Source: Acanthamoeba castellanii str. Neff
Lineage: Eukaryota > Discosea > Longamoebia > Acanthamoebidae
Direction: 5' to 3'
Length of the DNA stretch: 40,662 nucleotides
Assembly (NCBI RefSeq): GCF_000313135.1
Contig: NW_004457406.1
Coordinates: forward strand, 44,132-84,793
In this document: one piece after another, positions 29,467 to 38,272 of the stretch
How the letters are laid out: the number at the start of each line of letters is the position of its first letter
Numbering within the stretch: position 1 is the stretch's first letter
The notes under the pieces: model-generated
The model's database searches: none
What the model saw: the letters and a program-made list of their open reading frames with translations, nothing else
Told to the model about the DNA's origin: nothing
Program-made: the position numbers and the translations under genes

Positions 29467-32400
29467 ATGGTGAAGATCAAGGTGGCGGATGCAAGGGCAG
29501 GAAAGGAATATGAATTCGAAGTCAGGAAATCAGGTGTGCGCCCAAGCCCCCAAGAATTTGATTGCCTTCTCCTGCAAAGATTAATTTGCCAAATTGCCTT
29601 GATCCTGCACAGACACGGTAAAGGATTTGAGGGCAAGGATCCTTGAAGAGGTGAAGAAGGTGCCCGGTCGAGACTATGTCGAGGGCAGACACCTCAGGTG
29701 CCCCCTCCTTCGAAAACTCCTCTCCTTCTTGTGATTACTTCCGCCCATTCGGTCAAGTAGCGCGATCGCGCGTGTTTTTTGGGCTGACGTCAAGCATCAC
29801 CTGCAGACTGCTGCACATGGGCAGGGAGATGGAGGACGGTCCCGAAGAGCCCGGCAAGGAGCATCTGGTCTTTTTGTACCGCATCTGCGATGTACGATCC
29901 TTGCTCCCATGCCCGACGCTGCTGCGCTGCGCTGTGCTCTTGTCATCACCAACAGCTCGAGCTGGTGTTACTACGCTTAACCTCGTTTGATGTATCGATC
30001 GTGTGGCCAATGTTGCAGGGGTCGCTGGTGATACTCCACGTGCGGCCCAAGGAGGTGGATGAACCCGTGGCGCAGGAGGACTCGCAACAACCCACAACCG
30101 AGACGTCGTCGTCGGCTTCGGCTTCATCGTCGCCGGCGCCGGTGCCGTTCGTGGTGCCACCGATCGAGCAGGAGCACCTCGACAAAGCCCTCCCCGTCTC
30201 GTTGGTGACCGAGAGAACCAAAGTCAAGCTCCTATGCACCCCTGAGACGTACATATGCCTTCGCTTGTGCGCGTGCGTGCGTGTGCGCGTGCGTGTGTGG
30301 CGTGCGTGCGTGCGTGCGTGTGTGTGCGTGCGTCCAGCTCGAGCGCTGATTCAACTCGTTTCACACTTCAAAAGTGGTGACGACCTATTGCCACACGAGG
30401 AGGGAATCCCGCTCGGCGTCGTCTCGCGAACTCGCCGTGTGTTCCATTTGGACGCCGACACCGTCGCCAAGTTCCAAGACACAAACGTAACGTCAACCAA
30501 CCAACCAACCAACCAACCAACCAACCAACCAACCAACCAACCAACCAACCATGCAGGGCAAGTTTGCGTACATCTGCTTTGACTTGAAAGGTGCCGACCT
30601 GCCCAACCCGGACGGCGTCGACACCCACTGCGTCATGCGGAGGAGGAAGGAGCTCCCCACGACGGGCAACCACCTGGCCCTGTGGCTCATCTACCAGAAC
30701 GTGGAGCTCGACAAGAAGACCTCGGTTGGCCTGCCCGTCGGTCGCGCCGGTGGCAAGAAGGCGGCTGTTGCTGCCAAGGCCTCGGCCTCGGCGGGGAAGG
30801 AGAATGGGACCGCTGCCGCCGGATCGGCTGCCGCGGAGAAGGCAGAAGGCAGTACTGTGCTGGCCTTCCGGCTGAAGCGGCCTGAGGACCTTGAAGAGGG
30901 GTACTACACGCTGGGCGTCGTTGATCCCAGCGCACCTGATGAACGTACGCTCCCCCCCTCTTCGTTGTACTTCACTCAATCGTGTGTGTGTGTGTGTGCG
31001 TGCGTGTGTGTACTGATATGTCTGGCCTCCCCGCATGTTGGATGTTGACAGCTTGTGAAGTGTGTCGGTCGCACGATGACCCTGAGAAAACGCTCATTTG
31101 CGATCAGTACGCACTCCTCACCAGTTCAGATGTATGCGCTTGGGTCTCGCTTCTTAGCTGACCAACCCATCAGGTGCGGCGAGGGCTACCACATCTACTG
31201 CCTGACGCCTCCTCTCGCCCAAGTGCCGCCGGATGACGTACTGCATCGCCTCCCACCACTCGTCGTTCCCTTGACCAACTCACCTCCGCTTCTTTCCCCG
31301 CACACAGGTCGATTGGTACTGTCCTAACTGCTTCAACGGTACGCACACCGCACACGCACACGCGCACACACGCACACGCACGGTTGTCTTACCGGCGGTG
31401 GCGTACACAGACCCCGAAGCTGTGAAGGCGAAGATGTCGGACACCAAGCGCGGCCAGGCGCTGGGTGCCAAGAAGAAGGGCTGGGGAGGCGGCATGGCCA
31501 ACGCCGGTACGTAGCGGCAGACTACGATTCGTGGTGGTACATGTATGGTGGTGGTGCTGACGTCAGCACGGCACACCCTGGGCATATGCGACAGGCCTCA
31601 AGGCCAAGTGCACGATCGTGGAGAAGGACTTCTCCGGCCAAGTGCCCGGCACCTGGGTTGGCCAAACGTGGCCGGTACCCGACCTTTCACTCTCTTTTTC
31701 TTGTTTTTATTCTGCTGAACGGCTCAGTGTCGGCCTGCCGGCTCTCGCCACTGGTGCTGACATATGGGTGGGTCGTGCGTGGGGTGAACGTTGTGCTGGT
31801 GTAGATGCGCATCGACTGCAACAGCGCCGGTGTGCATCGTGAGATGATCGCCGGTATCGCCGGCAACGTCAATCTGGGTACGTGCAACGCAAGTGAACTG
31901 CTTTGCAGAAGAGGAAAAACAACGACAACAGCAACGAAGAGGAGTGTGACCAACAATAAGTTGTGCGTGGCGTTGTGGTGGGTGCGTTTTTATAGGGAAG
32001 GCGGTGAGTCTTGTGGTCTCCGGTGGCTACGAGGACGACGATGATATGGGAGAGCAATTCAAGTACTCGGGCAGCGGGGGTACACCATTCCTCCTCCTCC
32101 TTCGGGAGCTAACTATATAAACAAATAAACATTCACCAATAATATTAAAATAATTGAGAGATGAATGAAAACATTGATCAGTGATTCAATCCTTTCCTTT
32201 TTGCCCAGGGCGCAACTTGAAGGACGGCAACAAAAGAGTGGCCGGCCAGTCGTCGGACCAGATCTGGTCGTCGCGAAACCTGGTACGCGTGCACATCTCA
32301 CCATAAAGGAGCTGATGGTCACTATGGTGTGGACGATGTTCGAACTAAACCCAACAATGTTGGGTTCAAGGCGCTGGCGATGTCGTGCGTGGGCTTCAAG

Positions 32401-32752
32401 CACAAGTGCAACAAGGACTTCAAGGGCCACGTCTGCAAAGAATGTCAGGAGCGGTGGCGCGACGGCAAGCCGGTAACCCCCGAAACCCTGCTTGCTACAC
32501 TACACTGCAACATTGCAGACCAATCCAAAAATACGCCCGTTCATGTTTTTATTGTATTTATTTTGTTTTTAACCGACGGCCAGATCCGAGTGGTGCGGAG
32601 CAACAAGGCCAAGGAGTACGGACCGCAGAGCAAGACCAAGCTGTACCGCTACGACGGCCTCTACAAGGTGGCCGACTACTGGACCGAGAAGGGCAAGTCT
32701 GGTAAGGACCCTCCTCCGCACCAATGGGATCACCACTTAATGGCTGCACTCA

Positions 32753-32800
<48 letters not shown>

Positions 32801-33620
32801 CGCACCACCGCACACATGACACAATAGGTTTCAATGTGTGCCGGTATCTCCTGCGCCGAGACGACCCCGCCCCAGCCCCCTGGACGGCAGCCGGCAAGGC
32901 GTACATCAAGTACTACTCTCCTTCCCTACAATCATGTGTTGCGTTGCGTTGTGTTCGGCCGCTTGTGTGTGCGTGTGCGTGTGCGTGCGTGTGCGTGCGT
33001 GCGGTGACTGTTGGTTGAGTGTATTGGTTGACCGTCACAGGAAAATGCTGTCGGGCGCTAACCAGGCCAAGGAGGAGAAGCTGAAGATGCGCAAGATCCG
33101 CGTGCTGATCGAGCGTGATACGCTCAACAAGCGGACGTGGGACAACCTCGTGCCCCAGATCGACACCACCACCCTGGGCAAGTTCCTCGAGGAGGTGGAC
33201 CGCGAGTTCCCCTGCATGATCTGCCAGACGCGAGTCGACATCCCCTTCACCTTCCCGTGCGGCCACAACATCTGCCAGGTGCACCACACGACACACACGA
33301 CACACACGACACACAACCATGATATTTATTCTACTCTACTCACATGGGCGACTTTGCGTTGGTGTTGTGCAGGACTGCTTCAAGCACTTCAAGACGAAGG
33401 CGGAGAAGAAAGAGTGCGGCATGTGCCGGTACGCGTCACCCCCGCGCAACGTTTGTGTGCGAACAAAAGACGTCGCCTCATCACCTCCTCCTTTACATAC
33501 ATTTCCCCAGAGCTGAGGTGACTGCGGACTTTATCAAGACGGCCAAGTACAACGAGTACCTGGTGGACATCCTCGCCACTCTGTTCCCCAACTTCCAGCT
33601 CCCGCCAGGCCACAAGGTAA

Positions 33621-33652
<32 letters not shown>

Positions 33653-35761
33653 CACACACAACACACAACGAAACTAATGATTGATGGTTGGTGCGAATCC
33701 AGGTGCACGAGGTGCACGTTGAGCCGTGTGCAGGCGAGGAGGAGCCGATGGAGGTCGAAGCCGACGAGGACGACAAGGACGAACAGGAGGTCGTGAAGGC
33801 CGCGGCCGCCAAGAAGCGGAAAGCCGCTGCCCCGGCGGCCACCAAGAAGCGCGCCGCCCCGGCCGCCAAGAAGCGCGCCGCGCCGTCCTCGAGGAAGGGC
33901 AAGGAAAAGAGGTTCGACAGTGACGACGACGGCGACGAAGAGGAGGAGATCGTCGTCGACGGCGAGAGCGGCGACGAGGCGGAAGAGGAAGACGAACGAA
34001 AGCCGGCCAAGCGGGTCACCCGAGCCAAGCAGGCGACGGCGACGACTGCGGCCAAGCGGAAGCGAGGGGACGTGGCGGCGGTGGTGGTGGGCGACGATGA
34101 CGAGGATGCCGACGCCTTCCAGCCGGTCGCCAAGAAGAAGCGGACGTCAGTCGAGGGGAGCGCCAGCAGCAGGCGACAATCGGCGCCGAAGAGCGAGCCG
34201 GAGGAGATGGTGGTCGTGGACGACGGCGACGACGACGATCCGCTGTTGAACGTAGCGGTCGCGCAGACGAAGCAGACGACGAAGATGAAGAAGAAGCAAG
34301 CGGCGACGGTGGCGGTCGATGACGAAGATGACAGTGACGATTTTGTCGACACGCCGTCGAAGTCGAAGAAGGAGCAGGACATAGGCACTGATGATGATGA
34401 TGGCGCGGTTGATGAAAAGGACATCGGCACGGGCTGGGACCTGTGGCTCGAAGATGGGTATGCACTACACACGCACCATCTCTCGCCTCGGCGCTAATGA
34501 CACACGACACACACGACACACACGACACACACGACACACAACTAACCAACTGACACGACACGATGCTCTCTTTTCTTTGCCCGTGGCAGCCTGCCGTGTC
34601 GCGAGTTGACCAATTTTGCGCTGCTCTGGAAGACGCGCTCCTTCGTTGATATGGAGAAGATCGGCGACGGCCTCTCCGTCCGCGCCACCGGCTCCCTCGT
34701 CGCCCCTCCCGAATCGGTACCACCTCGCCGCCGCCCCTCCACACGCGCATGTGTCATTTCGCGTGCCGCGCGTGTCGTGTGTCGCGCCGCGTGTGTCGTG
34801 TGTCGTCTGTCGTGCCTCACCCTCACGCGACGCGACGCGATGCGATGTGCTCACATAGGCCAACACGGGCGCTGAGCTCAAGGTGCGCCTGCCAGGCATC
34901 ATGGAGTGGACCCTCGACTACACCAACGCGTGCCTGTGGCTCCGCACCCCCTTGGCCTGGTACTTTCCTCCGTGGGCTTTGGGGGCCTGAGGGGCTCATC
35001 GATTGTATCTGATACTATCATGGTCGCGGTGGGTTCAAGGTACAAGCTGGCCAAGCCGCTGCCTGAGTATGCGCCCCATTTCGAGGAGGCCAACGCCAAG
35101 TTTGAGATCTGCAACCACCTCACCACCATTCTCGAGGACGATGACAACACCGCCATCGACTTTGACGCCACCGTGGCCAAGGTTAGTTACAGTTTTTAGT
35201 TAGTTAGTTAGTTTGTCAGTTAGTTTAGTTGTTTAGTTGTTTAGTTAGTTTAGTTAGTTTAGTTAGTTTAGTTAGTTTAGTTAGTTTAGTTAGTTTAGTT
35301 AGTGACAGTTGAGTTTGTTGGTTCATTCTAATGCGTCGTATGTAAAAATCAGATGAAGGAGGCCAGCGGGGGCAAGTACGATGAACAGCACGTGCTCAAG
35401 AGGGCGGCCTTCATCGAGGAAAAGATGCTCCAGTTCCCCGAGGCCGAAGCCACCAAGAAGAGGTTCATCAGGCAAATGAAGAGCAAAGCGGGGTCGGGTT
35501 CCTCGAGCAGCAGGCGACCAGCCGCCAACACCAAGAAGAAGGGGAGCAGCACCGCGACGGCGACCAAGAAGTCGGCCACTTCGACGAAGAAGGCCAACCA
35601 AACGCCTGAACCCACGCAGCCCAACGGTTCGCTTTTTCTCCAGTGCTGAAGTTTTTGGTTTGGTTCGTTCATCTCACCCCCCATCTCACATATTCATATT
35701 TTGTTTTGGCCCAGGAGACAAGAAGAAGACGCTGGACCACTTCTTCAAGCCCAGGGCCTGA
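29467..35761 (+). CDS. UHRF1-like protein: UBL-PHD-SRA-RING with added RFTS-like domain and PIP-like C-terminus
   Basis: 26 exons, 1,223 aa: 29467-29533, 29613-29697, 29807-29891, 30019-30248, 30375-30486, 30557-30944, 31052-31106, 31174-31237, 31308-31338, 31411-31506, 31595-31674, 31805-31877, 31996-32079, 32209-32282, 32371-32472, 32584-32701, 32828-32909, 33041-33278, 33373-33428, 33511-33616, 33703-34457, 34590-34716, 34859-34959, 35040-35181, 35353-35626, 35715-35761. UBL: residues 1-91. PHD: 323-370 (C324, C327, C339, C342, H347, C350, C367, C370). SRA/YDG: about 416-600, with SGVHR-like AGVHREMIAGI, VVSGGYEDD, YRYDGLYKV, CRYLLRRDD. RING: about 667-708 (CMIC, CGHNIC, CGMC). A Lys/Asp/Glu linker follows. 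An RFTS-like domain spans about 994-1117 (RELTNFALLW, WLRTPLAWYKL, PEYAPHFEEA). The last residues are KKTLDHFFKPRA. UHRF1 reads hemimethylated CpG and ubiquitinates histone H3 to recruit DNMT1. The N-terminal tandem Tudor domain was not recognised. Confidence 0.87.
30494..30550 (+). repeat. (CCAA)n tetranucleotide array in UHRF1-like intron
   Basis: About 14 perfect CCAA units fill the 70-nt intron 30487-30556, leaving only the donor GTAACG and acceptor CATGCAG as unique sequence. Glycosylation-like Asn/Gln/Pro/Thr ORFs across it are artefacts. Confidence 0.95.
32751..32798. repeat. CA dinucleotide array in UHRF1-like intron
   Basis: A pure CA run lies in the intron 32702-32827 within the SRA-coding part of the gene. 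Confidence 0.92.
35196..35303 (+). repeat. TTAG / TTTAG repeat array in UHRF1-like intron
   Basis: TTAGTTAG and TTTAGTTAG units fill intron 35182-35352 between the RFTS exons and the C-terminal tail exons. The unit resembles some telomere repeats but sits in an intron, flanked by unique coding sequence. Confidence 0.9.
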
Positions 35762-35980: not shown

Positions 35981-37934
35981 TCACCGGCTGTGAGAGTGGT
36001 CGGCGTCCTCATCTTCGCCGCCGTGGTCGTGATCAAAGGCGAACAGAAGGCTCGCCATCGCCGCGAAGCCCACCACGGCCTGACATTGCACGCAATGCAC
36101 AATCGTGTGAATCAAGGATGGTTCAGTTGATGGTTCAGTTTCTGAATTTGACGACACATAGCAAACAACACAACGGCACGCACACGCACACGCACACGCA
36201 CACGCACACGCACACGCACGATCAAGGAAGCACAAATGTACACGTACCAGGAGGAACTTGATGTACTTGTCCCTGGCCGTTTGGAATTCCTCCAACAAAA
36301 TGTCGACGATGGCCACGTACACAAACGTGCCTGCGTGGTAGGCACCGGTCGTGTGAGCGGTCGTGTGAGCGTGCGTGCGTGCGTGCGTGCGTGCGGTGAG
36401 GGGTTGGTTTCGTTGTGTGTGGCAAGGGAAGTACCGGAAGCGATGGCGGTCAACACGGCGGTGGTGAGCTCTCCGGCGGTGCTCCCGGCGACGGCCGTGT
36501 AGAGGCCCGAACCCAGTAGAATGCCCAAAGGGCACATGATCGCAAACAGCATCAAAAACTGTTTCGAAAATTGAAACCACAATTAACTCACGATTATTAT
36601 ATTCTTTATTTGTATATTTATTTATTAATTTTTATTCATTGTTAATTATTAAATAATCGTTGATTTGTCGCTGGGGTACCTTGAAGAAGGAGAGGCCCTG
36701 CTTGCCGGCCTTGAGCAAGCTCACGCCGAGCGCAAAGGCCTCGATCCACTTGTGGGAGATGAGCGCCACGAAGATGCTCAGCGCCACGTTAAAGTCCTGC
36801 TGGATGCCCAGAGCAACGCCGGCAATGACTGTGTGCGGTGGTGCGCGTGTGTGCGTGTGCGGTGAGCTCCGGCATTACGGCAACACGGTGACTGGATTGG
36901 GGGGGATGAAGTAGTACTGGAGTGGAGGGAGAGCACAGCGATCAGGATGTAGGGCAGGAGCGCCTGGCGATCGTCCAGCACCAGGTCGTGATGGTGGTGG
37001 TCCTACACACGACACGACACGCACGACACGACACGACACGACACGCGTCAGCCCCAACAAACTGGACATGGCGGCGGCGGCGGAAGAATGGCCGACGCAC
37101 GTGGTGACCATGGCCGTGGTGGTGGTGATGGTGGTGCTCGTGGGCGTGGTCGTGATGCACAGGCGCGTGGTGGTGGTGGTGCCCGTGTGCGTGTCCGGGG
37201 TGGTGGTGATGATGCGGCGGCGGCGTATGCTCGTGCGCGTGGCCCGCCTCCTGGTCCTTCGGCACAACCACCGACCCGTATTGTTCGGCAGGCGTCTGCA
37301 CCAACACACGACACACACAACACACACGCCACCCGCGTGAGTATTTGATCGCTTGTGTGTTGTGTGTGTTGTGTGTGTGGTGTGTGTGGTGTGTGTGTGT
37401 CGTGCGTGTGTCGTGTGTGTACTTCGTCGATGGAGAAGGGCTGCTTCTCGCTGGGCAGGCTGGCGACGGTGACGGCGACCGGGTCGCGCAGGAAGAGGAC
37501 CTTCTCCACGAAGAAGGCCAGGCCGAAGCCCACCGGGCACAGGATGACCCCGAACGGGATCTCCCAGTCCGCGCCCAGCTCGTGCGCGAATGTCTCCTCC
37601 GCCTCCCGCAGCAAATGCACTGCGTAAAAAATATTAAAAATATTTTAAAAAAAGGGTGATAGTAAAGGCAATAAAATCGAGATAATTAATACATTCTTAT
37701 TCATATTCATATATATTTTATTTAATTCGATTAAATAAGTTAGGTACCGAAGCCGCCGGCGAGGAAAAGGCCGCCGGCAAAGGCGTTGCCGAGGGAGAGG
37801 AGCCGGTCGCGGAGGTGCGTGGAACGGATGAAGCGGCGCATGAGGAGCGGCACTGCCCCGAACACCATCTCCACCATGAGGATGCCGAAGAAGGCACCCA
37901 CCCTCATCCCTATCTCCTCTCCGTCCATCCCCAT
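35981..37934 (-). CDS. ZIP-family zinc/iron transporter with His-rich loop
   Basis: Exons (minus): 37934-37748, 37619-37423, 37295-37101, 37002-36918, 36828-36680, 36558-36435, 36330-36248, 36079-35981; 372 aa. Eight hydrophobic segments are interpretable. The N-terminal three include VGAFFGILMVEMVFGAVPLL, GNAFAGGLFLAGGFG and IPFGVILCPVGFGLAFFVEK. The loop between helices 3 and 4 is extremely His-rich (blocks such as HHHHHPGHAHGHHHHH), typical of ZIP metal-sensing loops. Helix 4 carries the family signature HSIIAGVALGIQQD and helix 5 has ALISHKWIEAFALG, whose His and Glu residues line the metal site. The C-terminus has HDHGGEDEDADHSH. The protein would import Zn(II), or another divalent metal, into the cytosol across the plasma or a vacuolar membrane. 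Two ATGs (37934, 37928) could start the protein; the first is chosen. Confidence 0.93.
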
Positions 37935-38272
37935 CCCTCCTCTTCTTTTTTTATCGGCTCCTTCGCTCTTCTTTCACCCTCGAGGCCCCTGCACCACTCG
38001 CTGACACTGCCGCGCTCACCTCACACCTCGCTCCCGTCTCTTGTTTCTTGGTGCTATGGCCACAAGCCAACAGGGCTGCGTTCTTCCGCTCTTGTTTCGG
38101 GGCCGAAATCTGGAATTTTAAACATTCAAGGCTTTATGAAACCCAACATAACTGACATTCCAAATGTCAGCCGGTTCTTCTCGTGGCGTTTTGGCAGGAA
38201 CGGACATTTCTCTCTCGATTTTTGATAACCGGTCGGCTCTGGTTGTGCGGCTGTACAGGTGGGGCCGAGTCA
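37935..38272. other. Intergenic region upstream of the ZIP gene
   Basis: A 338-bp gap lies between two minus-strand genes. It starts with a C/T-rich stretch just upstream of the ZIP ATG (about 37935-37985). No coding segment or repeat was recognised. Confidence 0.3.

Follow-up and report, generated by a model that had tools for sequence, protein, structure and literature searches.

In animals and plants, one protein, UHRF1 or VIM, writes the ubiquitin mark on histone H3 and another, DNMT1 or MET1, reads it. The replication-foci-targeting (RFTS) domain of animal DNMT1 binds H3 carrying the mono-ubiquitins written by UHRF1 (passages of PMC7060239 and PMC11662662), and both RFTS domains of plant MET1 bind dual-ubiquitinated H3 in gel shifts (passages of PMC12474915). 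Acanthamoeba castellanii is stated to encode both UHRF1 and DNMT1 (in a passage of PMC10538959). Here, we analysed 40,662 nucleotides of the A. castellanii str. Neff genome (contig NW_004457406.1, positions 44,132 to 84,793; "the window" below), in which a single gene encodes the domains of UHRF1 followed, in the same chain, by an RFTS domain. This arrangement had been proposed from the letters alone; a profile match, the predicted fold and an open reading frame (ORF) resembling a transcript all support the original prediction, and every sequence landmark that it named was found where it had been placed.

One gene and one reading frame

An exon model rebuilt from the DNA gives a single plus-strand gene at 29467-35761, with 26 exons coding for 1223 amino acids after splicing and a stop codon at 35759-35761. 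All 25 introns are GT-AG, and the genomic span is 6.3 kb. The order of domains along the chain is ubiquitin-like domain (UBL), an unassigned stretch, PHD, SRA, RING, a linker exon, RFTS and a tail that resembles a PCNA-interacting (PIP) box. The splice sites of this model were picked by the analyst. A small gene finder reproduced the exons from 30019 on and differed partly in the earlier part; having been trained on the same exons, it is not independent.

A model of this kind could have joined two neighbouring genes. It depends on the chosen splice sites, and with the intron retained, exon 21 runs into a stop at 34497. This 755-base exon is open in only one of three frames, the one that joins both neighbouring exons. 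Moreover, the entire chain is found in one ORF of 1218 amino acids (P0001) on a single public contig of 5128 bases, with Pfam matches for RING, SRA, PHD and RFD and with both joins of the 755-base exon. Similarly, P0075 carries DNMT1 in one ORF. The original prediction would have fallen had the RING and RFTS parts lain on separate mRNAs; P0001 holds both, which rules out two separate genes, and we consider an artefact of joining extremely improbable.

P0001 is 100% identical to the window protein over 186 residues around the RFTS, and 24 of the 25 exon joins are exact in the alignment. At the final join, P0001 is without the junction G of the model, a one-residue gap that an acceptor lying three bases downstream would explain. 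P0001 departs from the window protein in its first residues, in a few single residues and in small insertions and deletions, and is thus from a close strain and not from the window's own. Since a continuous frame of 1218 residues lies on a 5.1-kb contig, against 25 introns over 6.3 kb in the genome, P0001 must derive from spliced RNA of that close strain. Its source label, "lgn", probably denotes assembled public reads (Logan).

Domains of the fused protein

The profile DNMT1-RFD (PF12047), the family to which the original prediction had pointed, matches over its full length (positions 2-142 of 144) with 56.5 bits against a cut-off of 22 and an E-value of 4.1e-15. The RFD in the window is also recovered when the whole genome is searched unspliced in six frames (27.2 bits). 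The five columns that are invariant in the RFTS alignment (P18, G50, T88, Y93, L95) are kept, and both lobes align.

The predicted fold points to the same family. The AlphaFold model of the RFTS region (mean predicted local distance difference test, pLDDT, 85.2; predicted template modelling score 0.76) contains the N-lobe beta barrel and the C-lobe helical bundle, with extra helices to about residue 1143; the model ends at residue 1151. At E<=0.001, Foldseek matches it only to DNMT1, MET1 and DIM2 entries. The best matches by both Foldseek and VIA-align are RFTS domains, the VIA-align rows ranked after the RFTS family matching one lobe only, and the two nearest structures are RFTS domains with ubiquitin and H3. 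A plain sequence search of the PDB finds the RFTS weakly (best E 0.0012).

The UBL scores 28.3 bits when residues 1-91 are scanned alone (PF00240 cut-off 25.4) and 21 bits, under the cut-off, in the whole-protein scan; in an AlphaFold model of P0001, this block has a pLDDT of 84-91 past the first ten residues. A PHD finger is present (PF00628). In an alignment with UHRF1 homologues, the SRA loop motifs GGYEDD and GNKR are kept and YTGSGG is replaced by YSGSGG. The RING exceeds its cut-off of 27 bits and has all eight C3HC4 zinc ligands. From the SRA motifs and the zinc ligands, sensing of hemimethylated DNA by the SRA and ligase activity of the RING are plausible. One segment of the SRA, 32371-32472 (aa 509-542), is a cysteine-rich insert with the pattern C-x6-C-x8-C-x2-C; animal UHRF1 has only a short loop at this place. 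The insert could bind zinc.

The tandem Tudor domain is likely absent from Acanthamoeba UHRF1. No Pfam match over cut-off was found for it in the full protein or in the N-terminal piece alone, and a home-made profile built from UHRF1 homologues gave no significant match. The AlphaFold model is uninformative there (residues 97-312 of P0001), pLDDT being below 50 over most of the stretch. The approximately 237 residues in its place are partly Ala/Lys-rich.

The C-terminal tail, KKTLDHFF, fits Qxx[VLMI]xx[FY][FY] apart from the leading Q; its classification as a PIP box is our own reading of the sequence. It resembles PIP boxes found at C-termini, for instance in DNA polymerase eta, and is also present in P0001. 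The protein is the UHRF1 counterpart of an Acanthamoeba, lengthened at the C-terminal end by an RFTS and a putative tail of the PCNA-binding type. The mapped features are listed in Table 1.

Table 1. Features of the UHRF1-RFTS gene, in window positions
Feature	Position	Strand	Exons and evidence
UBL, aa 1-85	29467..30036	+	exons 1-4, ending within exon 4; PF00240; AlphaFold
Stretch aa 86-322, place of tandem Tudor domain	30037..30944	+	no Pfam family over cut-off
PHD finger, aa 324-370	31052..31338	+	exons 7-9; PF00628, 45.4 bits
SRA domain, aa 419-594	31636..32865	+	exons 11-17; PF02182 (SAD_SRA), 154 bits
RING finger, aa 666-711	33210..33523	+	exons 18-20; PF13920, 32.4 bits
Acidic/basic low-complexity linker, RING part to RFTS	33703..34457	+	755-base exon 21; same joins in P0001
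RFTS (DNMT1-RFD), aa 993-1119	34453..35454	+	last codon of exon 21 to exon 25; Pfam, AlphaFold
PIP-box-like KKTLDHFF, aa 1212-1219	35723..35746	+	sequence; four residues before the C-terminal end

Downstream of the gene, at about 37048-37973 on the minus strand, pieces placed side by side show a likeness to ZIP zinc transporters (24.7 bits, under the cut-off of 35.1). A scan for GTGCGTG gave 66 matches against 4 expected, in short tandem repeats.

Relatives and origin of the RFTS domain

A profilin encoded in this genome matches PDB 1f2k, profilin II of A. castellanii, at 125 of 125 residues, which places the DNA in that species or a very close one. Four RFD matches were found genome-wide (38.4 Mb, 250 contigs): the one in the window, two on contig C155 and one on contig C9. 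The pair on C155 belongs to DNMT1 (C155:79079-86471), for which Pfam finds two RFTS, two BAH and the methylase on our gene model, and whose N-terminal QGSIKAFF reads to us as a canonical PIP box. P0075 is 97% identical to this DNMT1 over the searched region and agrees with it in the N-terminus, PIP box and both RFTS included; it also reveals errors at some joins of the C155 model and short pieces missing from its methylase part. The original prediction had asked whether a DNMT1 of the same genome lacks an RFTS; the DNMT1 on C155 has two. A loss of the domain from DNMT1 to UHRF1 is thereby ruled out, as DNMT1 retains both. Further C-5 methylase matches outside DNMT1 lie at C215:64255-65683, C248:16663 and C94:880810 (best 126 bits). 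A second strong SRA (170.5 bits) lies on C154 at about 41243-41702; the 333-residue piece scanned there contains no further Pfam family.

The gene model on C9 (969000-977500, minus strand) has an RFTS (48.6 bits, best stretch at profile positions 67-140) and, after it, a zf-4CXXC_R1 finger (27.9 bits, cut-off 22.7) and a WSD (42.6 bits, cut-off 25.4); no SRA or RING was found in it. The zf-4CXXC_R1 family is that of the CDCA7-type finger. An exon-wise genome search with PF10497 returned six matches among seven candidates, and the C9 finger was not one of them, which calls for caution about this model. If real, the predicted C9 protein would be a second RFTS protein that is not a methyltransferase. 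A literature search found no paper on zf-4CXXC_R1 and RFTS together.

The UHRF1 RFTS is divergent: none of the other RFTS compared exceeds 29% identity to it. That value is reached with the C9 RFTS, and the two RFTS of DNMT1 in the same genome are 18% and 21% identical to it. The RFTS sample, 158 domains belonging to 115 proteins, was taken from the top 120 among 534 DNMT1-type matches. A tree was built from the four RFTS of the present genome plus 48 domains picked at random from 149 grouped ones. The domains of P0075 and P0157 were excluded, and only rows longer than 150 letters could be picked. In this tree of 52 domains, the UHRF1 RFTS joins that of C9 (support 96/68) and then plant RFTS2 (96/78), with long branches flagged by the program. 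Together with plant RFTS2 and the fungal domains, it is set apart from animal RFTS and plant RFTS1 by a branch with support 99/97. Two reduced trees without C9 leave it in the part holding plant RFTS2, fungal and amoeba domains (98 and 99) and place it no more closely. A recent copy of a DNMT1 domain is unlikely, and the UHRF1 RFTS may be of old origin. Recent local duplication of a DNMT1 RFTS was considered and is unsupported: the identities are 18% and 21%, and these domains do not join in the trees, although the long branches limit what the trees say about origin. As to a viral source, a scan of viral contigs, with a reach of close relatives only, gave 24 pattern matches and no relative.

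A search with the RFTS region returned P0001 as the sole protein at E<=0.01 among 629 candidates. With PHD-SRA-RING as query, 74 proteins were found at E<=1e-10 among 4708 candidates, and only one of the 74, P0001, has PF12047. These searches need shared five-residue words and cover proteins of approximately 670-2130 amino acids, with shorter proteins and distant protists outside the sample. The term "RFTS" has a count of zero in PMC10538959, PMC11244446 and PMC12344493, and the passages seen of these three papers and of PMC13297926 make no mention of an RFTS in UHRF1; their supplementary gene tables may list the protein. The PIP-like tail and the failure to detect a tandem Tudor domain go beyond the original prediction, as do the two-RFTS DNMT1 and the third RFTS gene model.

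Proposed function and comparison with known systems

The binding of animal and plant RFTS to ubiquitinated H3 led us to place a writer-reader loop on this mark at replication forks first among the possible functions; we favour it at about an even chance. The SRA would locate hemimethylated CpG behind the fork, and the RING, with the UBL, would ubiquitinate either the tail of H3 or an H3-like target bound to PCNA. UHRF1 would then be retained on the ubiquitinated product by its own RFTS and kept at PCNA by the PIP tail, so that the retained writer could spread or complete multiple mono-ubiquitination. DNMT1, with its own two RFTS and PIP box, would be drawn to the same mark. The RFTS of UHRF1, by reading the mark, would replace the retention role that the tandem Tudor domain has in animals. 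More tentatively, the RFTS may be a shared address tag by which UHRF1, DNMT1 with its two copies and the zf-4CXXC_R1/WSD factor, of remodelling type, gather on one ubiquitinated H3 mark, the writer being self-reinforcing and the tandem Tudor domain unneeded.

Several observations weigh against such a loop or against the parts on which it would draw. Residues I442 and I487, the ubiquitin-interacting motif 2 (UIM2) residues of human DNMT1 (passages of PMC11662662), are replaced by P and K in the amoeba domain, as mapped by eye through a rodent DNMT1 row and the human sequence, the automatic column lookup having given no match; the UIM1 pair is not alignable. In the I487 column, R or K stands in plant RFTS2 rows and K, R, H or L in fungal ones; the change at this residue need not be a sign of decay. 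DNMT1 RFTS rows were part of the fold model's input alignment, which makes the model not independent of the profile match. The PHD has CDQCG, where 10 of the 11 homologues shown have CD-C-D (CDECD). Finally, KKTLDHFF is without the leading Q of a PIP box, and chance alone would put the loose form [VLMI]xx[FY][FY] within the last dozen residues in roughly 1% of proteins (from 227 occurrences per 238,516 residues); it occurs in the last 40 residues, the tail of the RING part, of 5 of the 71 other UHRF1 homologues.

The replaced UIM2 residues are also consistent with the main rival, self-control in cis, modelled on the action of RFTS on the DNMT1 catalytic domain. Here, the RFTS would sit on the protein's own UBL or SRA/RING and shut the ligase, to be opened by hemimethylated DNA or by ubiquitinated H3. 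UBL and RFTS, which in animals meet in trans, are present in one chain, and the UHRF1 UBL contacts the DNMT1 RFTS in a manner distinct from the ubiquitin mode (passages of the review PMC6316679). RFTS domains autoinhibit both DNMT1 and MET1 (passages of PMC12474915 and PMC6316679). In addition, the animal closed state, in which the tandem Tudor domain is held by the polybasic region (passages of PMC6316679), would need a substitute in a protein with no detectable tandem Tudor domain. However, the low-complexity linker of about 250 residues between the RING part and the RFTS permits contact but does not demand it; we judge self-control in cis possible, on the doubtful side.

Alternatively, the RFTS may have lost ubiquitin reading and serve as a docking or scaffold piece that holds the DNMT1 core, HELLS/CDCA7-like factors or methylated H3 at the fork. 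The RFTS of fungal DIM-2 reads H3K9me3 (passages of PMC13297926), and the UIM2 residues unlike those of animals would fit, as would the divergence seen in the identities and in the weak PDB match. This docking role appears improbable to us, as both lobes align, the five invariant columns are retained and the nearest two structures are RFTS with ubiquitin and H3.

The favoured writer-reader loop can be asked about directly here, since both parts occur in one natural chain. The fusion also provides an RFTS with no methyltransferase to inhibit, which lets one ask whether the domain can act in that setting and whether it can replace H3K9me reading. A published A. castellanii methylome (passages of PMC12344493) makes the question testable in cells.

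Compared with the UBL-TTD-PHD-SRA-RING proteins of animals and fungi (TTD, tandem Tudor domain), the amoeba UHRF1 shares the UBL and the order and similarity of PHD, SRA and RING. Mean identities to the homologues P0002-P0072 are 51% for the SRA, 45% for the PHD, 34% for the RING and 26% for the UBL, averaged over the 68-71 of 71 that cover each segment. It differs by having no detectable TTD and by gaining a linker, the RFTS and the PIP-like tail. With the RFTS of DNMT1 and MET1 it has in common the full-length profile match and the fold, whereas the host is an E3 ligase instead of a methyltransferase; no match to the C-5 cytosine methylase family PF00145 was found in the UHRF1-RFTS protein. 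The predicted C9 protein has the RFTS nearest to it by identity and in one tree. Acanthamoeba DNMT1 (C155, P0075) belongs to the same genome and pathway and shares an RFTS and, if the PIP-like tail is one, a PIP box; it differs in having two RFTS, two BAH and the methylase. Its PIP box is N-terminal as in animals, while its two RFTS are as in plant MET1, which likewise carries two (passages of PMC12474915).

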